Source of the DNA: Gammaproteobacteria bacterium
GTDB taxonomy: Bacteria; Pseudomonadota; Gammaproteobacteria; Nitrosococcales; Methylophagaceae
Direction: 5' to 3'
Length of the DNA: 64,000 nucleotides
NCBI GenBank assembly: GCA_029248745.1
Contig: JAQWIT010000003.1
Span: forward strand, 62,001 to 126,000
Shown: positions 2,371 through 20,676 of the stretch, piece by piece
Layout: the number at the start of each line of letters is the position of its first letter
Numbering within the stretch: position 1 is the stretch's first letter
Notes under the pieces: generated by a model
Told to the model about the DNA's origin: nothing
The model's input: the letters and a program-made list of their open reading frames with translations, nothing else
Databases searched by the model: none
Program-made: the position numbers and the translations under genes

Positions 2371-3644
2371 GACGAACTTGCCTCATGACTATCTTCTCGG
2401 ATCCGAACGGTTCTAATAACGTTATCAGCTGTTTGTACAATTTCAATCACATACTGTTCGATACGTAAACTAACATTAGGCTCTGGAATACTTTCCAAGT
2501 ACTCTAGGATCAAACCATTAATAGTCTTAGGGCCTTCAGTTGGTAGTTCCCAATGGTTACTTCGATTAATTTCACGAATATTAGCGGAACCGTTAATCAA
2601 ATAACTACCATCTTCCTGTGGATGGATATCTTTATCTTCGTCAATATAGTCTGCTGTAAATTCGCCGACAATTTCACGAAAGATATCTTCCAATGTGATT
2701 AAACCAATAAGATCGCCATATTCATCAACAACGAGGCCAGTCCGTCTTTTTTGACGTTGAAATTGAATGAGTTGCGTATTAAGCGGTGTACCTTCGGGGA
2801 CGAAATAGGCGGCCTTGATAATCCCATTTAGCGTTTCGACGGTTAAATTATCTTGAGCTAATAAATGCAAAGCCTTACGGACATGTAAAATACCAATTAA
2901 TCTATCTAGGCTGGTTTCATAAACGGGTAGCCGGGTATTACCACAATAAGAGAGTTGCTTAATAATATCGGGTAATGGCGCATCAACATTGAGACCATCA
3001 ATTTCACTTCGTGGCACCATCACATCATCAACAGTGACTTTCTCCAAGTCTAAGATACTCATCAACATCTTTTTATGTCGTTGAGGTATCAGGCCCCCCG
3101 CTTCCTTTAAAGCCATTCTTAACTCTTCAGAATTGATGGCATCGGACATGGTTTCTTCGGGTTTAATACCAAATAGATTTAAAAGCTGGTTGGTAATTAA
3201 ATTGGTAAACCAGACTAAAGGATAAAGTAAAACTAAAAGTGGTTTAAGGATAAAGCTGGCAGGAAATGCAATACGTTCAGGGTGTAGCGCAGCAAATGTT
3301 TTCGGCGTGACTTCAGCAAATAGCAGAATAATCAGCGTCAAGGTGAACGTCGCAACGACAATGCCATTTTCGCCAAATAATTTAACGCCAATAATAGTCG
3401 CAATGGCTGACGCTAAAATATTAACGAAGTTATTGCCTAATAAAATGAGGCCGATAAGTCGATCAGGCCGGTTTAGGAGTTGACTTGCGCGCGTGGCACC
3501 TGAATGACCTTCTTGTTCTAAATGGCGCAAGCGATAACGGTTCAAAGACATTAATGCGGTTTCTGAGCTTGAGAAAAAAGCAGAAAAAACGAGCAAAATA
3601 AATAAGATAAATAATAAAAAAGTTATCGAAGTACTTTCGAGCAT
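2367..3644 (-). CDS. HlyC/CorC-family membrane protein with DUF21 and CBS domains
   Basis: 425 residues. The N-terminal ~190 residues are a DUF21 (CNNM) transmembrane domain with an early FSSSETALMSLNRYRLRHLE segment. Two CBS motifs follow (about 205-330, including VTVDDVMVPRSEIDGL and GLITLEDIFREIVGEF), then a CorC_HlyC domain (about 345-415). Related proteins (E. coli YfjD/CorB, CorC) are tied to Mg2+/Co2+ efflux or resistance; the transported ion here is an inference. It is downstream of the CcsA-like gene and divergent from ffh, an arrangement also known in enterobacteria (yfjD-ypjD-ffh). Confidence 0.88.
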   Translation of the reverse strand: MLESTSITFLLFILFILLVFSAFFSSSETALMSLNRYRLRHLEQEGHSGATRASQLLNRPDRLIGLILLGNNFVNILASAIATIIGVKLFGENGIVVATFTLTLIILLFAEVTPKTFAALHPERIAFPASFILKPLLVLLYPLVWFTNLITNQLLNLFGIKPEETMSDAINSEELRMALKEAGGLIPQRHKKMLMSILDLEKVTVDDVMVPRSEIDGLNVDAPLPDIIKQLSYCGNTRLPVYETSLDRLIGILHVRKALHLLAQDNLTVETLNGIIKAAYFVPEGTPLNTQLIQFQRQKRRTGLVVDEYGDLIGLITLEDIFREIVGEFTADYIDEDKDIHPQEDGSYLINGSANIREINRSNHWELPTEGPKTINGLILEYLESIPEPNVSLRIEQYVIEIVQTADNVIRTVRIREDSHEASSS

Positions 3645-3663
3645 GATGTGTTTTTATAAACGC

Positions 3664-4464
3664 CTATGATTGGGGTAAAATAAATTCCAGCACGAATTTA
3701 CTACCAAAATAAGCTAAAACCAAAAATAAAAACCCGACCAAAGTCCATTTTATGGCAGTTTGACCACGCCAACCATATTGCCAACGGCCCCAAAGCAAAG
3801 TGGCAAACACACACCAAGCAATAAGTGATAAGACCGTTTTATGAGCCAGCTGCTGTGCAAAGATATCATCAAGAAAAATAAAGCCAGTAATTAAGCCAAT
3901 GGTGAGTAATAAAAAGCCACTGCCGATTAATTGGAATAAACTTGCTTCCATAGACTGTAACGGAGGTAACTGTCGCATAATACCGCCTAGATTACGCTGA
4001 CGGATCTGACGTTCTTGGACAGCTAAGACTAGGGCTTGTATTGCGGCTAAAGTGAATAAACTATAGGCTGTTAATGATAATAGAACATGCCATTCTAATG
4101 CAGGAGAGGATAAGCTTCCTGCCGAATCGGAAGGCAAAGTAGATTTCAAAATAAGGGTTAAAGCAACCAGAGGATAGATAAGTATGCCTGGATGTGCAGC
4201 ATGGTTTTTAAAACCAATCAGATAAGCGATAAATGCCATTACCCAAGCGGCAATGGTCATCGTACTAAATAGACTGACATCCCACCCACCTGCATCTGCC
4301 ATAGTGAAAAAGATATCGGTACCATGAAAAATTAAAGCGAAAACCGTTAACAAACCAACGGGCAAAGCTAATGCTTGCGTCTTATCACCTTGCACAAAAT
4401 GTCGGATCAAGACCACACTACATACAAGATAGAGCAATAATGCGAGAGAATTTGCAATGGCCAT
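3664..4464 (-). CDS. CcsA/YpjD-like cytochrome c assembly family membrane protein
   Basis: 266 residues with about eight predicted membrane segments and conserved histidines (FHGTDIFF near residue 47; HVLLSLTAYSLFTLAAIQAL near 125; HKTVLSLIAWCVFATLLWGR near 208). The last motif and the WGRWQYGWRGQ that follows are characteristic of the CcsA/YpjD family, whose members handle heme in cytochrome c maturation or have unclear function. It is transcribed divergently from ffh and 19 bp ahead of the CorC-like gene. A dedicated cytochrome c role is unproven. Confidence 0.85.
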   Translation of the reverse strand: MAIANSLALLLYLVCSVVLIRHFVQGDKTQALALPVGLLTVFALIFHGTDIFFTMADAGGWDVSLFSTMTIAAWVMAFIAYLIGFKNHAAHPGILIYPLVALTLILKSTLPSDSAGSLSSPALEWHVLLSLTAYSLFTLAAIQALVLAVQERQIRQRNLGGIMRQLPPLQSMEASLFQLIGSGFLLLTIGLITGFIFLDDIFAQQLAHKTVLSLIAWCVFATLLWGRWQYGWRGQTAIKWTLVGFLFLVLAYFGSKFVLEFILPQS

Positions 4465-4603
4465 TTAAGCGTATTCCATGTCACATAATAAAAAAGAAGT
4501 CATCACAGGATGATGAGCGATGTAATCATAAAGGAACTAATATATCAGTTATAATTAACAATAACGTACTATAGATACTACGAAATGAACAGCAAGGTGA
4601 ACC

Positions 4604-5971
4604 ATGTTTGATAGTTTAAGTGACCGCTTAGGAAGTACATTACAAAAGCTTCGAGGCCAAGGAAGATTAACTGAAAGTAATATAAAAGAGAGCCTACGTG
4701 AAGTACGGATGGCTTTACTTGAGGCTGATGTTGCGTTGCCCGTGGTTAAAGCCTTTATCGATCGCGTTAAAGAACGCGCGATGGGTCAAGATGTACTTCG
4801 CAGTTTGACACCAGGGCAAGCTCTCATCAAAGTGGTTAATGATGAATTAGTCACAGTCATGGGTGAGGCAAACGAATCACTTAATCTGAATATGCAGCCT
4901 CCTGCCGTGATCTTAATGGCAGGCTTACAAGGTGCAGGTAAAACAACCAGTGTTGCCAAATTAGCGAGATGGTTAAAAGAAAGCCAGAAAAAATCGGTCA
5001 TGGTGGCCAGTGCTGACGTATACCGCCCTGCTGCGATAGAACAATTAAAAACCTTGGCGATTGAGGTTGAAGCCAACTTTTTCCCAAGTGATACGAGCCA
5101 AGATCCTGTTGATATTGCTAATGCGGCTGTAGCAGAAGCGAAATTAAAATTCATCGATGTGGTGATTATTGATACCGCGGGTCGTTTGGCCATCGATGAA
5201 GAGATGATGGCCGAAATCAAACGGTTACATGCCGCGATTAGCCCGATTGAAACCCTGTTTACGGTTGATAGTATGACGGGTCAAGATGCTGCGGTGACAG
5301 CAGATGCATTTAATAATGCCTTGCCACTCACCGGGGTTATCTTAACGAAAACAGATGGTGATGCTCGTGGTGGTGCTGCTTTATCGATTCGTCATATTAC
5401 CGGTAAGCCAATTAAATTTATGGGTGTCGGTGAGAAAACAACCGCACTAGAACCCTTCCATCCTGATCGTGTGGTATCACGTATTTTAGGAATGGGAGAC
5501 GTATTATCGCTGGTGGAAGAAGCACAGCGGAAAATGGATCAAGGCTCAGCCGAGAAATTAGCTAAAAAGCTTAAAAAAGGTAAAGGCTTTGACTTAGAAG
5601 ATTTCCGAGATCAATTACGCCAAATGGGCAATATGGGTGGCATTGGCTCGATGATGGAAAAATTGCCGGGTATCGCGAATATCCCTGCAGCAGCAAAACA
5701 ACAGGTGAATGATAAAGAACTAAGTCGTCTAGAAGCGATCATTAATTCGATGACGAAAAAAGAACGTCAACGGCCTGACATTATCAAAGGGTCACGTAAG
5801 AAGCGTATAGCAGCAGGTTGCGGCATGCAGATCCAAGATGTAAATCGTTTACTGAAACAGTTCACTCAAATGCAAAAGATGATGAAGAAAATGAACCAAA
5901 AAGGCGGTATGGCTAAGATGATGCGTGGTTTAGGTGGCAGATTCCCGTCTGGCGGGGGCATGCCTTTTTAA
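4604..5971 (+). CDS. ffh: Signal recognition particle protein Ffh (SRP54)
   Basis: 455 residues, normal length. The N domain (1-~90) is followed by the GTPase domain with the P-loop GLQGAGKTT near 105, DVYRPAA, DTAGR near 190 and TKTDGDARGG near 248. A Met-rich M domain (about 300-435) contains the 4.5S RNA-binding part (GSRKKRIAAGCG) and binds signal sequences, ending in repeated Met/Lys and a Gly-rich tail. It binds 4.5S RNA and targets nascent inner-membrane proteins to FtsY. The ATG is preceded by AAGGTGA. It opens the ffh-rpsP-rimM-trmD-rplS run. Confidence 0.98.
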   Translation: MFDSLSDRLGSTLQKLRGQGRLTESNIKESLREVRMALLEADVALPVVKAFIDRVKERAMGQDVLRSLTPGQALIKVVNDELVTVMGEANESLNLNMQPPAVILMAGLQGAGKTTSVAKLARWLKESQKKSVMVASADVYRPAAIEQLKTLAIEVEANFFPSDTSQDPVDIANAAVAEAKLKFIDVVIIDTAGRLAIDEEMMAEIKRLHAAISPIETLFTVDSMTGQDAAVTADAFNNALPLTGVILTKTDGDARGGAALSIRHITGKPIKFMGVGEKTTALEPFHPDRVVSRILGMGDVLSLVEEAQRKMDQGSAEKLAKKLKKGKGFDLEDFRDQLRQMGNMGGIGSMMEKLPGIANIPAAAKQQVNDKELSRLEAIINSMTKKERQRPDIIKGSRKKRIAAGCGMQIQDVNRLLKQFTQMQKMMKKMNQKGGMAKMMRGLGGRFPSGGGMPF

Positions 5972-6056
5972 CACAAAGCTAATTTAAGCTTTTCAAATGC
6001 AAGATAAGTGCGTAAAATATCTCAGTTTTCCGATCCCGCTTTAAACAGGCAGAAAT

Positions 6057-6305
6057 ATGGTCACAATTAGAATGTCTCGCAGTGGTGCAAAAAAGCGCCC
6101 TTATTATAATGTTGTAGTCGCTGATTCACGTAATAAACGTGATGGTCGCTGCATCGAACGTGTTGGTTTCTTCAATCCGCGGGCTCAAGGACAGGAGGAA
6201 ACATTACGTCTAGATATGGAACGTATTACACATTGGATCAACTTAGGTGCACAAACATCAGATCGTGTTGCTAACTTGATCATGCAAGCACAAAAAGCAG
6301 CATAG
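6057..6305 (+). CDS. rpsP: 30S ribosomal protein S16
   Basis: 82 residues starting [20 protein letters not shown], the typical S16 N-terminus, with [13 protein letters not shown] in the middle. It is a small-subunit assembly protein. It begins the classic rpsP-rimM-trmD-rplS operon; rimM follows 19 bp later. Confidence 0.98.
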
Positions 6306-6324
6306 AACAGTTTTAGGTTCCGGT

Positions 6325-6849
6325 ATGACCGCGACCGCATCCAAGGAATTTATTCCGGTTGGTAAAATTGCCGGAGTTTTTGGGATTAAGGGGTGGATGA
6401 AAGTCTTTTCATACACCGACCCAAGAAAGAATATATTAAGTTACAGCCCATTGTTCCTTTCCGTTAAGGGGCAGTGGATTGAAGCAAAAGTATCCAATGG
6501 ACGTATACAAGGTAAAGGGATTGTCATTGCATTAGATAATGTGACTGATCCTGAGCAGGTTTTACCGTTAATTGGCACGGCATTGGCCATAAAAAAAGAA
6601 CAACTAAAACCAACCAGCTCAGAAGAGTTTTATTGGTCAGAACTAACTGGTTTAGATGTCATCAATTTGGATGGGTACGTATTTGGCCAAGTTGATAGCA
6701 TAGTAGAAACAGGTGCGCACGATGTACTTGTTGTAAAGAATAAAGAACTAAAGGCAGAATGCTTAATTCCATTTGTATTGGAAGAAATCGTTCAAAAAGT
6801 CGACTTAGATAATGGAGTTATTGAGGTTGACTGGGAAGCTGATTATTAG
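6325..6849 (+). CDS. rimM: Ribosome maturation factor RimM
   Basis: 174 residues. The N-terminal RimM domain starts at VGKIAGVFGIKGWMKVFSYTD; a C-terminal PRC-barrel (about 95-170) contains EEFYWSELTGLDV and ends with EVDWEADY. RimM binds S19 and assists late 30S assembly. Position between rpsP and trmD is canonical. Confidence 0.97.
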   Translation: MTATASKEFIPVGKIAGVFGIKGWMKVFSYTDPRKNILSYSPLFLSVKGQWIEAKVSNGRIQGKGIVIALDNVTDPEQVLPLIGTALAIKKEQLKPTSSEEFYWSELTGLDVINLDGYVFGQVDSIVETGAHDVLVVKNKELKAECLIPFVLEEIVQKVDLDNGVIEVDWEADY

Positions 6850-6873
6850 GAAACTTAATTGAGGAACAGGCGC

Positions 6874-7620
6874 ATGCGTATAGGTGTAGTGTCATTGTTT
6901 CCTCACATGTTTGATGCCATTAGCGAATATGGTGTAACAGGCCGAGCAGTAAAAGAAGGCTTGTTAACACTAGCACATTGGAATCCACGTGATTTCACGC
7001 AAGATAGGCATAAGACAGTAGATGATAGGCCTTATGGTGGCGGCCCTGGCATGGTGATGAAAGTAGCACCATTACAGCAAGCTATCCATGCTGCAAAACA
7101 GCAGTTGGGTCCGCAAACAAAAGTTATTGCATTGTCACCGCAAGGACGGGAGTTGGATCAACAAGGTTTGCAAGAATTAGCAACAAGAGAGGAAATGGTT
7201 TTTGTTGCAGGACGTTATGAAGGCATTGATGAACGCCTGATAGAACAAGAGATAGATGAGGAATGGTCAATAGGTGACTATGTCCTCAGTGGGGGTGAAC
7301 TTGCAGCAATGGTGATGGTGGATGGGATAGCAAGATTATTACCCGGTGTGTTAGGTGATGAAGAGTCGGCACAACAAGATTCTTTTATGGCAGGTCTATT
7401 AGACCACCCACATTACACACGACCAGAACAATGGGCAGATCGACGCGTACCTAGTGTGTTACTAGGAGGCGATCATGAGGCGATACGACAGTGGCGTCTC
7501 AAACAGTCGATAGGTCGAACGTGGTTAAGGCGACCTGACTTGTTAGCAGTGATGACACTGAATGATGAGCAGAACGCATTGTTAGAACAATTTATTGCCG
7601 AGTGGCAAGAAGAACAGTAG
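6874..7620 (+). CDS. trmD: tRNA (guanine-N1)-methyltransferase TrmD
   Basis: 248 residues from the ATG at 6874, which has GAGGAA eight bases upstream; a longer TTG start at 6859 is less likely because the family begins [10 protein letters not shown]. The product methylates G37 of tRNAs reading CUN, CCN and CGG using SAM. SPOUT-knot motifs are visible: [12 protein letters not shown] near residue 53, LSPQGREL near 85, [12 protein letters not shown] near 110 and [10 protein letters not shown] near 130. Confidence 0.97.
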
Positions 7621-7638
7621 GAATTTAGGAGTAGAACA

Positions 7639-7986
7639 ATGAGCAATATTATTGAACAGCTAAACGCTGAGCAAATGAGACAGGACATTCCTGAATTTTC
7701 TTCAGGCGATACTGTTATTGTTAAAGTAAAGATTAAAGAAGGTGATCGTGAGCGTGAACAGGCCTTTGAAGGTGTTGTTATTGCTAAACGTAACCGTGGC
7801 CTTCATTCTGCTTTTACTGTACGTAAAATCTCAAGTGGTGTTGGTGTTGAACGTGTTTTCCAAACACACAGCCCTGCTGTTGCAAGTTTAGAAGTGATTC
7901 GTCGTGGTGATGTACGTCGCGCTAAACTATATTACTTACGTGAATTGACTGGTAAAGCTGCACGTATTAAAGAAAAATTATCATAA
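7639..7986 (+). CDS. rplS: 50S ribosomal protein L19
   Basis: 115 residues. Motifs of L19 are present: [31 protein letters not shown] and the C-terminal [21 protein letters not shown]19 sits at the 30S-50S interface. It is the last gene of the operon; a strong terminator follows 40 bp later. Confidence 0.98.
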
Positions 7987-8025
7987 AGTCTTTTTGCACC
8001 TGATTTAAGGTGCATGAGATTCAAC

Positions 8026-8062
8026 AAAAAGGGCATTGCTGGTTTCAGCAATGCCCTTTTTT
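8026..8062 (+). terminator. Rho-independent terminator after rplS
   Basis: Perfect 10-bp stem GGGCATTGCT (8031-8040) with AGCAATGCCC (8047-8056), a 6-nt loop, flanking A and T runs, and a T tract from 8057. It ends the rpsP-rimM-trmD-rplS transcript. Confidence 0.95.
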
Positions 8063-8100
8063 ATGGCGAAATCTTGAGTTAATTTAGGTATTATGCAGTA

Positions 8101-8586
8101 ATGACAGAATTACAGCAGATAGCATTGCCCTTATCTAAGGGCCCAATCAAGCAATTGTCATTAACAATTGTAGACGATACGTTAAGCATTATTGCCATTG
8201 ACTTTGAGCGACAAGCTACTACAACATCCACGTCAGTACTATCACCCCAAATAAAGGAAGTGATGCAGCAGCTCAAGCAATATAGTCTGCAAGCGCACAA
8301 TGGCTGGTCTATTGGTTTGCCTGAATCAGGAACCGTTTTTCAAAAACGGGTTTGGCAACATTTACAATCTATCCCAATGGGGACGACACAAACCTATGGT
8401 GAAGTGGCGAAAGCACTCAATAGCTCTGCAAGGGCTGTTGGTAGTGCCTGTCGTGCTAACCCTTATTTATTAATCGTTCCCTGTCACCGGGTTGTTAAAA
8501 GCAGAGATATTGGTGGTTTTGGTGGAAAAATAGATGGCGAAGCAATAGCGATAAAGCATTGGTTACTGGCGCATGAAAAACAATAA
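8101..8586 (+). CDS. ogt: Methylated-DNA--protein-cysteine methyltransferase
   Basis: 161 residues. The C-terminal DNA-binding domain has FQKRVWQHLQSIPMGTTQTYGEVA and the active-site PCHRVV (Cys near residue 127), which accepts the alkyl group from O6-alkylguanine in a suicide reaction. The N-terminal domain is short and poorly conserved, as in Ogt-type enzymes. The 3' end overlaps the start of xerD by 14 bp. Confidence 0.93.
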   Translation: MTELQQIALPLSKGPIKQLSLTIVDDTLSIIAIDFERQATTTSTSVLSPQIKEVMQQLKQYSLQAHNGWSIGLPESGTVFQKRVWQHLQSIPMGTTQTYGEVAKALNSSARAVGSACRANPYLLIVPCHRVVKSRDIGGFGGKIDGEAIAIKHWLLAHEKQ

Positions 8587-9481
8587 ATTAGCCGAGTCGC
8601 CAGCTTATCTAGAACCTTTTTTAGATAGTCTGTGGTTAGAGTCAGGTCTAAGCAAAAATACCGTGGAAGCTTATCGGCGGGACTTAATGGCCTTTGCAAT
8701 GTGGTTAGCTCAGGATGAAGTATCATTATCAGCGGCAACCCGAGAAGACATCTTGCACTATCAAGGTGTACGAATACAAGAAAGTCGAAAAGCACGCAGC
8801 GAAGCGCGCTTATTATCTAGCCTAAGACGTTTCTATCGTTATTTGTGCCGTGAGGAAATAAGAGAATCAGATCCGACAACACAAATAGAATCACCCCGCT
8901 TAGGCCGCCCTTTACCGGAAGGACTAACGGAACAAGAAGTTGAAAATTTATTAAAGCAACCTGACATCAGCCATCACCTTGGCCTAAGGGATAGAACAAT
9001 GCTAGAGGTGCTTTATGCAACGGGTTTACGTGTTTCCGAATTAGTGACGTTGACGATCGAGCAACTCAATATGCGCCAAGGGCTAGTGCGTTGTGTGGGA
9101 AAAGGTAATAAAGAACGTTTGGTACCTTTAGGAGAAGTGGCTTTAGACTGGTTACAACAATATTTAATCGAAGCCCGACCTGTTTTATTACAAGGTTACG
9201 TTAGTGAAGACTTATTTCCGACGCGGCGTGGTAAAGCGATGACACGACAAGCTTTTTGGTATTTGATTAAACGTTATGCACTGCAAGCTGAAATAGAAAA
9301 ACCACTATCACCACATACTCTAAGACATGCTTTTGCAACCCATTTGCTTAATCATGGAGCTGATTTACGTGTTGTCCAATTATTACTGGGACATTCAGAT
9401 TTATCGACAACTCAGATATATACCCATATCGCACGAGAAAGATTAAAATCATTGCATGCAAGCCATCACCCAAGGGCTTAG
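8573..9481 (+). CDS. xerD: Site-specific tyrosine recombinase XerD
   Basis: 302 residues. The N-terminal SAM-like core-binding domain (about 12-100) starts LEPFLDSLWLESGLSKNT; the catalytic domain carries the Arg in ATGLRVSEL, Lys in GKGNKERLVP, HTLRHAFATHLL, LGHSDLSTTQIY and the nucleophilic Tyr in IYTHI. With XerC it resolves chromosome dimers at dif. The motifs fit XerD better than XerC. It overlaps ogt, so the two are probably co-transcribed. Confidence 0.94.
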   Translation: MKNNKLAESPAYLEPFLDSLWLESGLSKNTVEAYRRDLMAFAMWLAQDEVSLSAATREDILHYQGVRIQESRKARSEARLLSSLRRFYRYLCREEIRESDPTTQIESPRLGRPLPEGLTEQEVENLLKQPDISHHLGLRDRTMLEVLYATGLRVSELVTLTIEQLNMRQGLVRCVGKGNKERLVPLGEVALDWLQQYLIEARPVLLQGYVSEDLFPTRRGKAMTRQAFWYLIKRYALQAEIEKPLSPHTLRHAFATHLLNHGADLRVVQLLLGHSDLSTTQIYTHIARERLKSLHASHHPRA

Positions 9482-9523
9482 CAATGATAGAATCTCACCA
9501 TTACAACCTATTGGGAACAAAAG

Positions 9524-10009
9524 ATGCCGGCGTTTGATATCGTCTCTGAAGTCGATCAACATGAATTGACCAATGCAGTTGATCAAGCAAACCGAGAATT
9601 AGCCAGCCGCTATGATTTTCGGGGTAGCGATGCCAAAGTGGAGCAAGCAGCTAAATTGCTCATATTATTTGCTGATAGCGATTTTCAATTAGAACAGCTA
9701 CTAGATATCTTACGTTTGAAGTTGGTCAAACGAAAAATAGAAGTCAGTTGCTTAGAGATTAAAGAGCCGATGGGCCAAGGTAAAATGCGTAAACAAGACG
9801 TGATTGTGCGGGAAGGAATTGAAAAAGATCTCTCACGTGAAATCGTAAAATTAGTCAAAGAAAGTAAGCTGAAAGTACAAGTGGCAGTACAAGGGGAAAG
9901 CTTACGAGTTACGGGTAAAAAGAGAGATGATTTACAACAAGTGATGGCTTTGTTGAAAGGCAATGACAGTCTTGATATGCCATTACAATTTAATAACTTT
10001 AGAGATTAG
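9524..10009 (+). CDS. yajQ: YajQ-family nucleotide-binding protein
   Basis: 161 residues, family length. Begins [22 protein letters not shown] and has [13 protein letters not shown] and the C-terminal [17 protein letters not shown]. YajQ proteins are cytoplasmic ferredoxin-fold proteins; members in Xanthomonas and Pseudomonas bind c-di-GMP and act with a LysR-type regulator. Nucleotide specificity here is not shown by the sequence. It lies 8 bp ahead of dsbC. Confidence 0.95.
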
Positions 10010-14705: not shown

Positions 14706-14782
14706 GCGCCCGTAGCTCATTTGGATAGAGCATCGGCCTTCTAAGCCGAGGGTAACAGGTTCGAATCCTGTCGGGCGTGCCA
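14706..14782 (+). tRNA. tRNA-Arg (UCU), 3' part rebuilt by an integrated element
   Basis: 77 nt with encoded CCA. The anticodon arm is TCGGC-CTTCTAA-GCCGA, anticodon TCT, reading AGA. The first acceptor pair is G-T (G1 with T at 14778), a wobble. From 14715 onward the sequence recurs at 20605-20676 with two differences (14765 A versus G; 14778 T versus C), so the present 3' part is probably the element's copy and the original 3' end lies at the far side of the element. Confidence 0.95.
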
Positions 14783-14826: not shown

Positions 14827-15771
14827 ATGCCATCAATCCGTTTCCGAAATTCAAAGTATCAAGTGCTCGTTCGTATGAATGGCATTTCAATCTCTAAAAC
14901 TTTCACTAAGAAATCTGATGCCCAAAAATGGGCTAAATGCGCAGAAGTAGCTATTGAGTCTGGTCGATATAAGAGGGAGCTAACACTTACCGTAAAGGAA
15001 GCACTAGCAACTTATAAGGATAAAAGGATTTCTCATGATAAGCGATCACATCCCCATGTTAATAATGCCATAAAAGGACTAGGTTCTATCCGAGTTGATT
15101 TATTAAACTCTCATCACCTTGTTCGATACCGGAATATGCGTCTAGATACACATAGTTTGCAGACTGTTAAACATGAGCTGTCAATGGTTCTTAGAGCTTT
15201 AAAGTGGATGAGGGATGAAGAAGGGTATGAACAGATAAAAATACCCACTGTTAAGATGCCTAAACTACCAAGAGGGAGAGATAGAAGGCTAAGTACAGAC
15301 GAACTTAATGGTCTATTAATAGCACTGAAGTCAACACCACAAGTTCAATTTATCATTGAGTTGGCTATTGAAACGGGTATGAGACGTTCAGAAATAATAA
15401 ATTTAGATTGGTCACATGTTAATCTGAACAGCAAAACTCTTCTTATACCTAAGACAAAAACAAATATCCCAAGAACTATTCCTCTTACAAGCAAGGCTTT
15501 GTTAATACTTTCTATGCTACCAAGAAGCATTACTGGACAAGTGTTTAACATCAAGGCTGATAGTGTCTCACATGCCTTTAGAAGAGCTTGTAAGCGTATT
15601 GGAATTGATGATCTCAGATTCCATGATCTACGGCACGAAGCTATATCTAGGTTCTTTGAAATGGGTTTAAATGTTATGGAAGTGGCTTCAATAAGTGGAC
15701 ACAAAGACTTAAAAATGCTTCAAAGATATACTCACCTCAGAGCAGAGGATTTAGCTAAAAAACTAGGTTGA
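14827..15771 (+). CDS. Tyrosine integrase of the tRNA-Arg element
   Basis: 314 residues from the ATG at 14827, chosen for its AGGAG eight bases upstream; an in-frame ATG at 14794 would lie just past the tRNA. The N-terminus (SIRFRNSKYQVLVRMNG, then KKSDAQKWAK) resembles phage integrase arm-binding domains. The catalytic domain has ETGMRRSEI, HDLRHEAISRF, SGHKDLKML and the Tyr in QRYTHL. It should recombine the tRNA-Arg att sites. Nothing suggests inactivation. Confidence 0.93.
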   Translation: MPSIRFRNSKYQVLVRMNGISISKTFTKKSDAQKWAKCAEVAIESGRYKRELTLTVKEALATYKDKRISHDKRSHPHVNNAIKGLGSIRVDLLNSHHLVRYRNMRLDTHSLQTVKHELSMVLRALKWMRDEEGYEQIKIPTVKMPKLPRGRDRRLSTDELNGLLIALKSTPQVQFIIELAIETGMRRSEIINLDWSHVNLNSKTLLIPKTKTNIPRTIPLTSKALLILSMLPRSITGQVFNIKADSVSHAFRRACKRIGIDDLRFHDLRHEAISRFFEMGLNVMEVASISGHKDLKMLQRYTHLRAEDLAKKLG

Positions 15772-15937: not shown

Positions 15938-16337
15938 TAATTACAAAATACACAATTAAATAACATTAAATACTCTAGACTTGAGATGATCTAAAACACT
16001 ACTTACATTGAATTATATTATTTACATCATCACCTTTATTACAGAATATAACTAACAAGTGTGTGTATCTATTATGATCCAATATAGGAGCTATTATTAG
16101 TAGAGATATAGCTACTAATGATGGTATAAATCTATAGTTATAGAGTTAGTATTATAGTGTTATGGGTATATAGGGCACGTAAGAGACTATGGATTATGAT
16201 AGAGACCTAACATGGGTAGAAAACCTCAAGATACAGAGCTATTCAAGGTGACTACTCATCATCAATGCCAAATGAGGGTTCGTGCTTAATTAAAATGTTA
16301 TAGTACATTTATAACAATGTTATTGGTACTAAATAAA
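15938..16337 (+). other. AT-rich non-coding stretch in the element
   Basis: About 400 bp of AT-rich sequence with no convincing gene. It contains an 8-bp inverted repeat, ATTAGTAG (16096-16103) with CTACTAAT (16112-16119) around an 8-nt spacer, and many TATA-like tracts. A 25-codon frame at 16212-16289 starting MGRKPQDTELF is possible but has no support beyond being open. It is the upstream region of the barrel gene and may hold its promoter or operator. Confidence 0.5.
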
Positions 16338-17438
16338 ATGAATAATATCGGATTGATTAAGTCAATTAGCTTTTCCCAGTTGACGGCCTTAATAATACTC
16401 TTCGGATTCTCTAACGCAGCCATCTCGGAAGAGGCTAGGAGCCGTAGTGGATGGTCTACAGCTAGTAATGACAATGAAGAAAATACCTCTCAGTCATTAA
16501 AGAATATCAACAGCTATGCTGATAACTCCACAATTGTTGCAAAACAATTAGTCAAATTGGCTTCAGCAGCTGGCGATGGAAGGGCAACAGAGACATATTT
16601 AAAGCAGAGTCTTGCCGATACAGCTCTTGATGCACTCAAAAACTCCTATTCTGCAGAATGGATTAAACGAATTGAGGCTGAAATAAACGTTCAAGCTAAT
16701 TCGAAGCCAGTATTTTCTGTTAGAACAGTTCAACCTCTATACCAATCTCCAAATAAAGAAAAAACACTTTTTACTCAACTTCGTTATGCAGAACATACTG
16801 AATTTAGTGAACGAAGACATACAACAAATATAGGCTTAGGATATAGGCAACTATTTTCAGACAAAACATTAATGCTAGGTGGGAATATTCACCTTGACCG
16901 TGAGTGGAAAAGGGACCATAACAGATTAGGGTTAGGGGTTGAGGCACGCTGGTACGGTGCAGATATTTTCTTAAATCGTTACCAGGGATTGTCTTCAGAC
17001 CGGTCCATTTCAAGCATTACAACTGAAGAAATTTTAGATGGCTGGGACCTTCAAACTATGTTGCAAGTTCCTTATGTACCTTCTGTCAGAATCTTAGCTA
17101 CTAGCTCTAGATGGAAGGTGGGTTCTGGAGAGTACTCTAACGGCTGGGAAGCAGGTATTGAAGCCGATTTGACTAGTTTTTTACAATTAACAATTGGTGC
17201 AAATGATTACAGTAGTGATAATAAGAACAAAGGTATGTTTCTTAGGTTACGCTTAAGCCCTGGTCAGTACGGAAAAAACAGACCAACATTACTAAGTGCT
17301 AACAGCATATCCACTGAGCCATGGCAAATGAGAGATATGAGCAACTATACACTGGATAGAATTCGAAGAAGTGAAAACATCAAACTACAGCGGATTACGA
17401 AATCAGCTGGCTTAAAGATCGTTGTCGTAAGAAATTAA
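16338..17438 (+). CDS. Short inverse-autotransporter beta-barrel protein
   Basis: 366 residues from the ATG at 16338; another ATG at 16317 is possible, and neither has a good ribosome binding site. A signal peptide covers about residues 1-30 (cleavage near NAAISEE). Residues ~125-330 show the intimin/invasin/YchO-type barrel pattern: FTQLRYAEHTEF, TTNIGLGYRQLF, MLGGNIHLDREW, LGLGVEARWYG, DGWDLQTMLQVPYVP. Near the C-terminus, RSENIKLQR recalls the linker after such barrels, but no Ig-like passenger follows. It would sit in the outer membrane. It is 16 bp ahead of a secreted-protein gene. Confidence 0.8.
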   Translation: MNNIGLIKSISFSQLTALIILFGFSNAAISEEARSRSGWSTASNDNEENTSQSLKNINSYADNSTIVAKQLVKLASAAGDGRATETYLKQSLADTALDALKNSYSAEWIKRIEAEINVQANSKPVFSVRTVQPLYQSPNKEKTLFTQLRYAEHTEFSERRHTTNIGLGYRQLFSDKTLMLGGNIHLDREWKRDHNRLGLGVEARWYGADIFLNRYQGLSSDRSISSITTEEILDGWDLQTMLQVPYVPSVRILATSSRWKVGSGEYSNGWEAGIEADLTSFLQLTIGANDYSSDNKNKGMFLRLRLSPGQYGKNRPTLLSANSISTEPWQMRDMSNYTLDRIRRSENIKLQRITKSAGLKIVVVRN

Positions 17439-17454
17439 TATAGGTTATAACATA

Positions 17455-18108
17455 ATGAAGCATTTCGTAATTTTTGCAGCATCAGTTTATTTATTTTCCA
17501 GCATTGCTATTGCTGGCACATGCGGTTCTGATGGCACTATTTGTTGTTCAAGCGTTTCTACAACCGAGCAATTTGAGTGTGTAGCCCCAGCAGACGATAA
17601 GTACCAATTCCAAATCAAAAGGTTTGGTTTTGAGCGTGCAGATGGGACTATTGTATGGGTGGGAAGCCCGACTACCTTTGATGCTTCATCTGTATCCGCA
17701 GGCTCATCAGTTGGCGCATATGCCTCAGGAGAGCCTCTTCCATATGGAACTTATGTGGCTCTAAGGCCCGAAATTAGCGGTGTAACCACTGTTAGCGCAA
17801 GTGGAACAACCAAAACTCTAGATAATATAAGTTGTGCTGCAACTGATGAATCTGTGGATATAATAGCAGAAGATCCAAACATACCTCTTTGCTCTGCTGC
17901 TCCCGCCGCTGCCGAGTGTAACACTGGTGATGGGTTTCTAAGAATACGAGACGCATCTGCCGGCAGCTTCACAATTAGTGAGAGTTCGTCACCGACCATT
18001 ACATTTGGCTTTGATGTCGACTCAGCAGTGGTGTTTAATATTAGCGCCCCTGGAATATGCTCATACAAAGATCTTGGCTCATTAAATGTAACCTTGACCG
18101 TGCAGTAA
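17455..18108 (+). CDS. Secreted Cys-rich protein of unknown function
   Basis: 217 residues, not recognised. A clear signal peptide (MKHFVIFAASVYLFSSIAIAG, cleavage after AIA) is followed by a Ser/Thr/Ala/Gly-rich, probably beta-rich mature part with eight Cys (GTCGSDG, ICCSS, FEC, ISCAA, PLCSA, AECNT, GICSY), enough for four disulfides. It follows the barrel gene by 16 bp in the same direction, so the pair probably forms an operon. An adhesin-like or pilin-like partner of the barrel is possible but only inferred from location. Confidence 0.75.
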   Translation: MKHFVIFAASVYLFSSIAIAGTCGSDGTICCSSVSTTEQFECVAPADDKYQFQIKRFGFERADGTIVWVGSPTTFDASSVSAGSSVGAYASGEPLPYGTYVALRPEISGVTTVSASGTTKTLDNISCAATDESVDIIAEDPNIPLCSAAPAAAECNTGDGFLRIRDASAGSFTISESSSPTITFGFDVDSAVVFNISAPGICSYKDLGSLNVTLTVQ

Positions 18109-18187: not shown

Positions 18188-18512
18188 TTGAAGATTTTGT
18201 GTACTTAGACTTGCTTACTTCTTAGCACCAATGCTTTCGCTTGTTATGATGAGAGTCTTAGTTATAAAGCCAATTTCGATAACTGCTTGGTTGAGGCTGA
18301 AGAAGGATATGCAAAGACTCAATACAACCTTGGGCTTAATGTATGGGATGGGTCAAGACTACAAGAGTGCACACATGTGGTTCAACATAGCAGTTGAAAA
18401 TGGAATTCCAAGAGCAATAAAGGGCAGAGACATCGCAGCTAAAGAAATGACACCATCACAAATAGAAAAAGCACAAGATATGGCTCGTGAGTGGATGGCT
18501 GAGCATCAATAG
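18188..18512 (+). pseudogene. Broken secreted Sel1-repeat protein
   Basis: From TTG at 18188 the frame reads a signal-like segment (KILCT, in-frame TAG at 18206, then CLLLSTNAFA), then CYDESLSYKANFDNCLVEAEEGYAKTQYNLGL. A +1 shift near 18337 is needed to continue into LMYGMGQDYKSAHMWFNIA, a Sel1/TPR-like repeat, and the tail ending WMAEHQ. The usual GVPQ before DYK is missing. A start lost to TTG, an in-frame stop and a frameshift make this a pseudogene. Its end overlaps the next gene. Confidence 0.75.
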
Positions 18513-18969
18513 ATTACTTCTACCCTTACTTTTACTCTTTACCTTATCAACCCAAGCAGAAACATTAGAAGGTAAGGTAGTTAAGATAGCTGATGGCGAT
18601 ACGCTTACTATACTCACTTCAACAAACCAACAAGTAAAAGTTAGATTAGCTGGCATTGATACGCCTGAAAGAAAGCAGCCTTTTGGTAATAGAGCTAAAC
18701 AAGCTCTTTCTAGCCTAGCCTTTCAGAAACAAGCATTAGTAGAGATAGAGACAAAAGACAGATACGGAAGAACTGTAGGTGTTGTTTTTGTTGATGGTTT
18801 AAATGTGAACCATGAATTAGTTAAACAGGGTATAGCATGGGTTTATAGGAAATACACTAGCGATAAAAGGCTTTATGCTCTGGAATCAGAAGCGAAACAA
18901 TCTAAACGTGGGCTTTGGTTACAAGAGAATCCTATACCACCTTGGGAGTGGCGTAGAGGGAGGCGTTAA
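18487..18969 (+). CDS. Secreted SNase-like (thermonuclease family) nuclease
   Basis: 160 residues from GTG at 18487. A signal peptide runs to about TQA-E (residue 24). The staphylococcal-nuclease fold shows IADGDTLTI, RLAGIDTPER, ETKDRYGRTVGVVFVDG (catalytic Arg and Asp region) and GIAWVYRKY, ending in PWEWRRGRR. It would cleave DNA or RNA outside the inner membrane. It overlaps the Sel1 pseudogene by 26 bp. Confidence 0.88.
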   Translation: MSGWLSINRLLLPLLLLFTLSTQAETLEGKVVKIADGDTLTILTSTNQQVKVRLAGIDTPERKQPFGNRAKQALSSLAFQKQALVEIETKDRYGRTVGVVFVDGLNVNHELVKQGIAWVYRKYTSDKRLYALESEAKQSKRGLWLQENPIPPWEWRRGRR

Positions 18970-19139
18970 ATCACCAGTTTTTAAATTCTTTTAATAGTTA
19001 AGCCCATCTATATTTTACTTTTCATTTGTCTACACTGTTACTACTCTTATTTAAATAGCAAATAACTTGGAAATCTGGGGATGAGATCCTATGATGCTAA
19101 GTAAGGAATTATTCGATAATGTTTTGCGAGGTCTCTTTT

Positions 19140-19874
19140 ATGGAAAAAAACACACCGACACGAAATCCTAAATGGTCGCGAGACGAGCTTATACTGGCGT
19201 TGGACTTCTACTTAGATCATCGTCCTTCTCTTCCTGATAAAAACACTTCTCAACTCCAAGAAGTGAGTAAAACTCTCAACAAATTAATGAATAAACTCGG
19301 TCATACAGGTAATAACAAGTATAGAAATCCAAATGGTGTTTATATGAAACTTATGAACTTCTTGCCATTTGACTCGACTTATTAGGGAAAAGGACTATCA
19401 CGAGGTGGTAAGGGCGATAAGGAAGTTTGGGATTCATATGCGGATAAACCAGATTTATTAAAAAGCATAGCAAATAATATTAAAGCTAACATTTCCTCAG
19501 ATGTTGGACCCGCCTCGTATGACTATGATGATCTTGATGAAGACGAAGCAAAAGAAGGAAGACTCCTTACTGTTGTTCATAAAAGGCGTGAAAGAAACAA
19601 AAAGATTACCCAGAAGAAAAAAGAAACCGTGCTAAAACGATTTGGCACACTTGCATGTGAAGTATGTAATTTTGATTTCAGTAAAGTGTATGGAGAACGT
19701 GGAAAAGATTATATCGAATGTCATCACACTATCCCTGTTCATCGAATGAAAGAGGGCGATAAGACTAAGTTGTCTGATTTAGCATTAGTTTGTTCAAATT
19801 GTCACAGGATGATTCACAGAAAACGTCAGTGGTTAAATATTGATGAATTACGTTCAATAATTCAAGATCAGTAA
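19140..19874 (+). pseudogene. HNH endonuclease gene with one in-frame stop
   Basis: Starting at ATG 19140, the frame reads an N-terminal part (NPKWSRDELILALDFYLDHR) up to TAG at 19383-19385, then continues in the same frame: GKGLSRGGKGDKEVW, and the HNH domain CEVCNFDF, IECHHTIPVHRM, LALVCSNCHRMIHRK. Two CxxC pairs and HH fit McrA-like HNH nucleases. Only one codon breaks it, so this is a recent nonsense mutation, readthrough, or a sequencing error. A GTG at 19629 could restart the HNH domain alone. Confidence 0.8.
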
Positions 19875-19876
19875 TA

Positions 19877-20281
19877 ATGGAGCGAAGTACCTCAAAAGAC
19901 AATGCTAAATCAGCTTGCTTGTTTTGTAACATACCTACAGAACGAATTATTGAAGAGAATGAACTAGCATATGTTATTGAAGATAATTTCCCTGTAACTG
20001 AAAAACACACCCTCGTCATTCCTAAAAGACATGTTTCCTCTTATTTTGAACTCACAGAAGAAGAAGTTATTGCTTGTGATTCTCTTCTTGAAAAAAACAA
20101 AGATAGAATACTGATAACAGACTCATCAATCAGCGGATTTAACATCGGAATCAATATAGGTGAAGATGCTGGTCAGACAATATTTCACTGCCATATCCAC
20201 TTGATACCACGAAGGAAAGGAGATGTTATTAACCCCAAAGGTGGCGTCCGTGGTGTTATCCCTTCTAAACAATCATATTAG
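19877..20281 (+). CDS. HIT-family nucleotide hydrolase/transferase
   Basis: 134 residues. CLFC near the N-terminus is a HIT-type metal-site start; TEKHTLVIPKRHV and the active-site triad HCHIHLIPR (near 111-119) define the family, which cleaves nucleoside phosphoramidates or dinucleoside polyphosphates. It begins 2 bp after the HNH gene, so the two are expected to be co-transcribed. The substrate is unknown. Confidence 0.88.
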   Translation: MERSTSKDNAKSACLFCNIPTERIIEENELAYVIEDNFPVTEKHTLVIPKRHVSSYFELTEEEVIACDSLLEKNKDRILITDSSISGFNIGINIGEDAGQTIFHCHIHLIPRRKGDVINPKGGVRGVIPSKQSY

Positions 20282-20604: not shown

Positions 20605-20676
20605 GCTCATTTGGATAGAGCATCGGCCTTCTAAGCCGAGGGTAACAGGTTCGAGTCCTGTCGGGCGCGCCATTTC
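20605..20676 (+). repeat. attR: right 72-bp repeat, orphan 3' part of tRNA-Arg
   Basis: Same sequence as 14715-14786 except G at 20655 and C at 20668. Upstream of 20605 the tRNA 5' part is absent (AATTAACAGT instead of the acceptor/D-arm start), so this copy cannot be a functional tRNA. Its C at 20668 would restore a G-C first acceptor pair. Confidence 0.92.

Follow-up and report, generated by a model that had tools for sequence, protein, structure and literature searches.

The locus examined here raises a question of partnership: does an HNH endonuclease gene broken by one in-frame TAG belong with the HIT gene that follows it? The pair lies in a stretch of 64,000 nucleotides (the window) from a gammaproteobacterium of the Methylophagaceae. 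Two key issues are: (i) whether the two genes form a unit or are chance neighbours; and (ii) what the TAG signifies. A sequence-only reading had taken the pair for a defence or plasmid-competition module on a mobile element, either just disabled or dependent on readthrough or on translational restart. We conclude that the pair is probably one cargo operon of an integrative element in a tRNA-Arg gene, composed of a type-IV-like HNH endonuclease and a HIT phosphohydrolase partner, and recently disabled by the TAG.

The integrative element and its insertion site

The pair is indeed carried on a mobile element. An integrase gene, a 72-nt duplication of the tRNA end and empty sites in relatives are all present, identifying an integrative element in tRNA-Arg of ~5.9 kb (5,890 bp from the tRNA to the repeat copy), with the HNH and HIT genes at its right end. 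The features are:

14706..14782, + strand, intact tRNA-Arg(TCT), left attachment site (ARAGORN; 3′ part within the 72-nt repeat)
14827..15771, + strand, tyrosine integrase, just downstream of the tRNA (PF00589, E = 4.4e-30)
16317..17438, + strand, cargo: inverse-autotransporter-type beta-domain protein (PF11924, E = 3e-28)
17455..18108, + strand, cargo: 217-aa protein with a signal-peptide-like start (by eye); Pfam, PADLOC and NCBIfam gave no family match (E <= 0.1)
18231..18512, + strand, cargo: short Sel1-like ORF (weak Sel1 match, E = 0.06)
18487..18969, + strand, cargo: thermonuclease (SNase) with a signal-peptide-like start (by eye) (PF00565, E = 9.8e-29)
19140..19874, + strand, HNH endonuclease gene with one in-frame TAG (ORF reading, Pfam, alignment, structure model)
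19383..19385, + strand, the in-frame TAG (codon 82); in the predicted model it falls between N-terminal-domain helices 64-72 and 91-100
19629..19874, + strand, possible restart ORF of 81 aa from GTG, covering just the HNH domain; considered an unlikely start
19877..20281, + strand, intact HIT-family protein, 134 aa, HxHxH motif FHCHIHL (PF01230, E = 1.3e-17; alignment)
20605..20676, + strand, right attachment site, formed by a 72-nt copy of the tRNA-Arg 3′ end (97%; repeat search)

Among the cargo of this very small element are an outer-membrane protein of inverse-autotransporter type and, next to it, an exported-looking protein (16317-18108).

The folD-tRNA DNA was matched in 29 of 29 genomes of the genus, in some of them (e.g., G016, G019, G022 and G023) by a short tRNA-like match only. 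Ten related sites were read. Five are of the empty type, in which capD lies no more than a few hundred bases from the tRNA and there is no insert (L374, L375, L376, L377 and L380). In two others the tRNA is followed by part of a related integrase (L373 and L378), and two have other DNA before an intact tRNA copy (L371 and L372), including sugar dehydrogenase and glycosyltransferase genes recognised by eye in L371; L379 ends short of capD. Because related genomes show empty, occupied and remnant sites, the tRNA-Arg beside capD is a recurrent integration site, or hotspot.

The HNH gene and its product

The HNH frame runs from ATG 19140 (a second in-frame ATG lies upstream, at 19119) to TAA 19872-19874, and its read-through product has 244 residues. 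ORF reading confirmed that the frame is open on either side of the single TAG at 19383. The frame is not due to chance, since 20,000 shuffles of the stretch never gave fewer than five in-frame stops (mean 18.4); the other five frames contain 11-31 stops each. The read-through protein matches PF01844 (HNH; E = 1.3e-9) and keeps the Cys and His residues of that domain (C173, C176, H196, C218, C221, H222 and H226). When invariant columns were counted on 27 aligned relatives, with the window sequence excluded, the window protein kept 20 of 21, the exception being V for L at residue 42, and it departed in none of 30 further columns conserved at >=90%. All 16 invariant columns after the TAG are kept, which fits the earlier suggestion that the gene has just been disabled.

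The predicted model (pLDDT 86) has a helical N-terminal domain (~1-120) and an HNH domain (~165-232). By profile, the best PDB match is EcoKMcrA (6ghc, E = 4.1e-6), for the HNH part only. VIA likewise aligned the HNH part only, with Z scores of 5.5 to 6ghc and 5.6 to CBASS Cap5, which fall in the middling range of that tool's scale, and Foldseek found nothing at E <= 0.001 for the model in BFVD or PDB. The N-terminal domain had no recognised match to a known reader by profile, Foldseek or VIA, the last of which barely tested this half of the protein.

The relatives retrieved comprise 34 loci from a scan of genome contigs and 57 from a viral scan; in a plasmid scan 201 records matched, nine of them covering >=80% of the query. 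Members of the family stand alone or behind other domains. In L028 a ScoMcrA head domain (5zmm, E = 3.1e-15) precedes the same HNH module, and this, with the EcoKMcrA match, upholds the assignment of the HNH protein to a restriction type. In L059 a window-type N-terminal domain is followed by an EVE domain and then a McrA-like HNH. Stops are found in the aligned part of three of the 91 fetched relatives (L052, L057 and L059). L059, from Brevundimonas, has an in-frame TGA (at 6061) that lies within this shared N-terminal domain; L052 contains three stops.

Several plasmid relatives lie among restriction genes, including SinI-type genes on Psychrobacter pA42P5; nearby genes encode a PLD/Z1 protein and a cytosine methyltransferase for PsyG_26, and a restriction endonuclease and a DGQHR protein for Priestia pBEH1, while a Rhizobium plasmid has an integrase nearby. 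A DNA cytosine methyltransferase is adjacent to, or one gene from, two plasmid relatives, an arrangement that would suit a type II accessory as well as a type-IV-like module. No methyltransferase was found by Pfam among the seven proteins of the element, and inspection by eye of the ORFs immediately flanking the 27 relatives brought none to notice. The HNH protein is best read, from these similarities, as a member of a mobile family that resembles modification-dependent (type IV) restriction enzymes. These searches assigned the N-terminal domain to no recognised fold, so calling it a putative modification reader is by analogy.

In the window an SNase gene neighbours the HNH gene, as one does for a relative on Rhodococcus plasmid pWB1 (L416 2843-3553, E = 1.4e-18); near a Caulobacter relative there is an SNase-looking ORF by eye, with no Pfam match (L049 6695-7144). 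SNase may be a third recurring partner.

The HIT protein

As the sequence-only reading had noted, the HIT gene starts (ATG 19877) 2 bp after the HNH stop codon. No clear ribosome site of its own was seen by eye. The subfamily to which the protein belongs has a conserved C-terminal GGVR tail. HIT domains of this kind also occur at the end of HNH-HIT fusion proteins, and the three motif histidines of the window HIT are common to the nine fusion rows of the alignment. In a HIT tree of 67 rows, which has few columns and many unsure forks, the five rows closest by path to the window HIT are without exception fusion HIT domains. Its side of the tree comprises 30 rows (support 100/98), with every one of the ten fusion rows among them, together with 14 viral rows and five others. 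The HIT genes that have an HNH_2 partner are scattered across the opposite side; the association with HNH thus seems to have more than one origin.

This tree position would fit a window HIT that is the fusion protein minus its front; no remnant of such a front is visible at the gene. As a separate 134-aa ORF, the window HIT falls outside the family of single polypeptides with N-terminal domain, HNH and HIT. The window's own genome also contains a second HIT remnant between chromosomal genes (L244 7892-8041; G000:C1:151891-152043), which consists of the last 50 residues only and is ~74% identical to the window HIT.

Recurrence of HIT genes with HNH nucleases

For its own HNH family, the window's arrangement is rare. 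A HIT gene is near the HNH gene at one of 34 genome loci and none of 57 viral loci (1/91 overall). The one case, L038 from Comamonadaceae, has a 332-aa HNH-HIT fusion, with HIT as the last domain, 12 bp downstream of the HNH gene; a ResIII helicase gene lies beyond the fusion. In the HNH tree no starred clade unites the window with L038, and the two pairings may therefore be independent.

A different picture emerges when the HIT gene is the starting point. Across the class, 46 of 369 genomes have a HIT gene of the subfamily, a count that includes the window's own genome. An HNH gene is fused to or abuts the HIT gene at seven of 44 loci, as against none of 35 control stretches (Fisher p = 0.013; p = 0.048 without the fusions), a small comparison that is not blind, because the HNH models were home-made and partly trained on counted loci (L242, L243, L246 and L247), with a fourth model added after the plasmid result. 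The 44 loci omit three distant HIT matches (G158, G311 and G199) and the own-genome fragment; the controls were 35 stretches obtained of 40 asked for, from 28 of the same genomes, and represent long contigs and a non-random choice. Two of the seven loci are fusions (L242 and L243), four have HNH_2 neighbours (L246, L247, L272 and L284) and one has an HNH_4-type neighbour (L251). The HNH proteins of L246 (E = 2.8e-34) and L247 (E = 2.6e-13) match the phosphorothioate-restriction family NF045808, both below the NCBIfam cut-off. No HNH was found fused or abutting at the other 37 loci; several of the 44 stretches end at contig ends (e.g., L242, L275 and L276), so that a neighbour can be missed. 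The controls contained one weak HNH match in 356 kb (E = 1e-4), away from any HIT gene, in a stretch that holds Zorya genes and shares a contig with L247 (L288). A Pfam scan of 85 HIT neighbours gave HNH_2 in four (one of them, at L272, entered manually to replace the neighbour picked automatically) and HNH in two; for 70 control genes, the 25 families listed, of 125, include no HNH family.

A second class, chosen for the fusion in genome G467, had the HIT in nine of 289 genomes. Three are HNH-HIT fusions (L241, from G467; L393; and L394), four have no HNH link (L395, L397, L398 and L400), and two are fusion relatives that have the N-terminal domain and HIT with no detected HNH (L396 2498-3652 and L399 5273-6397). 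In the genome of L399, the match in the second-class scan had an in-frame TGA. In an order centred on a fusion genome, three of 78 genomes had the HIT, namely two fusions and one remnant.

Plasmids provide further pairs. Among nine plasmid records with a subfamily HIT, four have an adjacent HNH gene: HIT comes first in Polaromonas (L404) and Aromatoleum (L406), and HNH comes first, as in the window, in Hymenobacter (L411, where the HNH has a Pfam score below the cut-off and is annotated in the record as an HNH protein) and Persicobacter (L412). The other five, from Jeotgalibacillus, Pontibacillus, Methylocystis, Methylosinus and Paraburkholderia, have no adjacent HNH. Tight couplings, ranging from an 8-nt overlap to a 3-bp gap, are found at L246, L247, L284, L406, L411 and L412. 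E. coli genomes gave no DNA match to the HNH-HIT pair. Of 99 phage records matching the front half of the fusion, none matched over 80% of it, and no viral hit to that half was confirmed; with the whole fusion, the best 80 of 112 viral loci matched the HIT end, and 12 of them were used in the HIT tree. A HIT is present in 21 phage records, and the one that was read has no annotated HNH gene adjacent.

HIT proteins of this subfamily thus recur fused to, or abutting, several kinds of HNH nuclease. The sequence-only reading was to stand or fall with the recurrence of HNH-HIT neighbourhoods, and on this point it stands because they recur in other genomes and plasmids; the recurrence holds for HIT with HNH nucleases generally and not for the window's own HNH family. 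This bears on a rival account, in which the HNH gene and an unrelated housekeeping-type HIT gene lie side by side as decaying cargo on a degrading island and share no function. The 37 HIT loci with no HNH found, the scarcity of HIT neighbours in the window's HNH family and the three relatives with stops are all compatible with it. On the other hand, it does not readily accommodate HNH-HIT fusions at 11 loci, the close coupling to HNH_2- and HNH_4-type nucleases with either gene first, or the position of the window HIT on the fusion side of its tree. We regard decaying cargo as unlikely, while giving it some weight.

Genomic setting of the HIT loci

Eleven fusion loci were read (L038, L147, L148, L237, L238, L239, L241, L242, L243, L393 and L394; L240 is a second fusion copy in the genome of L239). 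In five of them the fusion directly adjoins another nuclease or restriction gene:

L038, an HNH gene of the window's family
L237, an HNH_2 gene 20 bp upstream
L148, a type-IV-like HNH gene with a weak SRA match
L241, a cluster (2875-9714) with DndD-, DndB- and PT-restriction-helicase-like genes
L393, a T5orf172 nuclease gene

The L239 fusion abuts a prophage DNA-methylase gene, and that of L243 has an HNH gene 3.5 kb away; no nuclease or restriction gene directly adjoins the fusions of L147, L238, L242 and L394. As for the two-gene arrangements, the HIT-HNH pair of L246 comes directly after zorA3-, zorB3- and zorF3-like genes, and that of L247 is beside a DarT/NADAR gene pair. A solo HIT gene with no HNH partner lies between a type-IV/Mrr-like gene and AbiEi/AbiEii in L264 (113-3605). 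The control stretches likewise contain defence genes (Zorya, Hachiman and Dpd models), and the defence-gene setting of the HIT loci is for that reason suggestive only.

Possible roles of the HIT protein

Enzymes of the HIT family cleave bonds that link a nucleotide to another group; AMP-lysine is one such bond (HINT enzymes). In the operon that we favour, the N-terminal helical domain would recognise a target on incoming DNA, which the C-terminal HNH domain would nick or cut. The HIT protein would act on the same event and, in the simplest case, would clear the cut DNA, or an adenylated partner (DNA ligase, for instance), of nucleotide adducts; the damage would then stay and nicks would be kept open. 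A job at the cut site is the simplest role that could be common to HIT proteins beside several kinds of HNH nuclease.

Alternatively, the HIT protein could hydrolyse a nucleotide signal, as proposed for ThsC, and thereby regulate the nuclease instead of acting on DNA ends. ThsC is the HIT protein of Thoeris type II, for which the PADLOC authors propose hydrolysis of a nucleotide signal (PMC8565338, in the part of the article available), and the PADLOC ThsC model matches the window HIT (E = 8.4e-9). No other Thoeris protein was found among the seven element proteins scanned, nor did reading the paired loci bring any cyclase or TIR gene to notice, and a signalling role seems doubtful to us. A Thoeris assignment was itself rejected, the HIT/ThsC match being the only one that PADLOC gave for that system among the seven proteins.

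The proposed operon could also be an instance of something broader. HIT proteins of this subfamily might be general partners of HNH restriction nucleases, with an anti-repair function: by taking AMP off ligase or off nicks, they would leave the nicks of weak nickases unsealed, in association with several HNH families and one fusion, and the window would then hold a freshly silenced copy. We consider this generalization a long shot.

Meaning of the in-frame TAG

The TAG most likely reflects a recent nonsense mutation or a base error, and it would leave an N-terminal fragment of 81 residues. The residues aligned to codon 82 vary among the relatives, so no conserved residue is lost there. If it is a nonsense mutation, translation of the HIT gene would probably be lowered too, because that gene lies 2 bp after the HNH gene and has no clear ribosome site by eye; the module would then be off in the window strain. 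A sequencing or assembly error, with the gene in reality intact, would be in keeping with the retention of nearly all other conserved features and with a sample of one genome of the species, but the change is a substitution and not a homopolymer slip, and we think such an error improbable.

TAG is an ordinary stop here and terminates 12 of 53 long ORFs in the window. Among 37 tRNA matches in the genome, 30 and a further six regions were read and the last is the duplicated tRNA end (one, C9, is unconfirmed as a tRNA); no CTA anticodon, as an amber suppressor would have, occurs in this non-exhaustive set, from which some expected tRNAs are missing. These observations speak against the dependence on readthrough that had been entertained. 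It is correct that GTG 19629 is the first possible start (ATG, GTG or TTG) past the TAG. Its position is occupied by V, F, A or T in the relatives, the codon is GTG in four of 27 and ATG in none, no clear ribosome site precedes it by eye, and its product would comprise the HNH domain but not the N-terminal one; restart there is accordingly not supported. A functional TAG, whether for regulated readthrough or as a deliberate split with an HNH polypeptide restarting at that GTG, draws on the otherwise open frame and its conservation downstream, but on the evidence just given, with all 27 aligned relatives uninterrupted and a bare HNH domain expected to be harmful (SprMcrA minus its N-terminal domain is a non-specific nicking enzyme, according to the available part of PMC7461809), it is very improbable.

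Relation to known systems

The window HNH protein is like the EcoKMcrA/ScoMcrA class in its C-terminal HNH, in its layout of an N-terminal domain followed by HNH, and in having relatives with a ScoMcrA head or EVE; it is unlike that class in an N-terminal domain with no known-reader match, in the HIT gene that follows and in the TAG interruption. The SBD-HNH phosphorothioate-dependent enzymes (NF045808; SprMcrA type) are likewise paired with solo HIT genes elsewhere (L246 and L247), but in the HIT-first order, and they belong to a different HNH family. The HNH-HIT fusions (L038 and others) appear, in their predicted model, to resemble the wH-HNH fusion endonucleases (PMC11037411, available part) in having an N-terminal part whose helices and strands follow a winged-helix-like order, and then HNH, and differ in adding a C-terminal HIT; the fusion model is of low confidence (pLDDT 70, pTM 0.42) and too weak for a structure search, and neither the N-terminal nor the HNH part of the fusion is present in the window.

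For the HIT protein, ThsC (PMC8565338, available part) offers a precedent of a HIT protein in a defence setting, whereas the Thoeris core genes thsA and thsB are absent by PADLOC among the element's seven proteins. With HinT/Fhit/Ap4A-type hydrolases the window HIT shares the HxHxH motif and the sequence family, and its subfamily differs by the conserved GGVR tail and the genomic link to HNH nucleases.

In the open-licence literature we found no report of HNH-HIT pairing; only the PADLOC paper surfaced, on HIT in Thoeris, in the part of it available. 'HIT' does not occur as a whole word in the main text of the article on PT-dependent enzymes (PMC7461809), nor 'HIT domain' or 'histidine triad' in the main text of PMC11037411. 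The window thus apparently presents a known class of restriction nuclease with an unreported HIT partner, in a freshly broken copy.

Finally, we note that many modification-dependent restriction enzymes have been described as lone proteins. The repeated presence of a HIT partner, whether HIT or HNH comes first and whether the two are fused or tightly coupled, points to a nucleotide-processing step in some of these systems; in some cases Dnd-like, DarT or Zorya genes lie next to the pair. If the HIT protein blocks repair or removes an adduct, the restriction of phages by weak HNH nickases would have an explanation. Intact HNH-HIT pairs already exist in annotated plasmids, and the idea is therefore directly testable.
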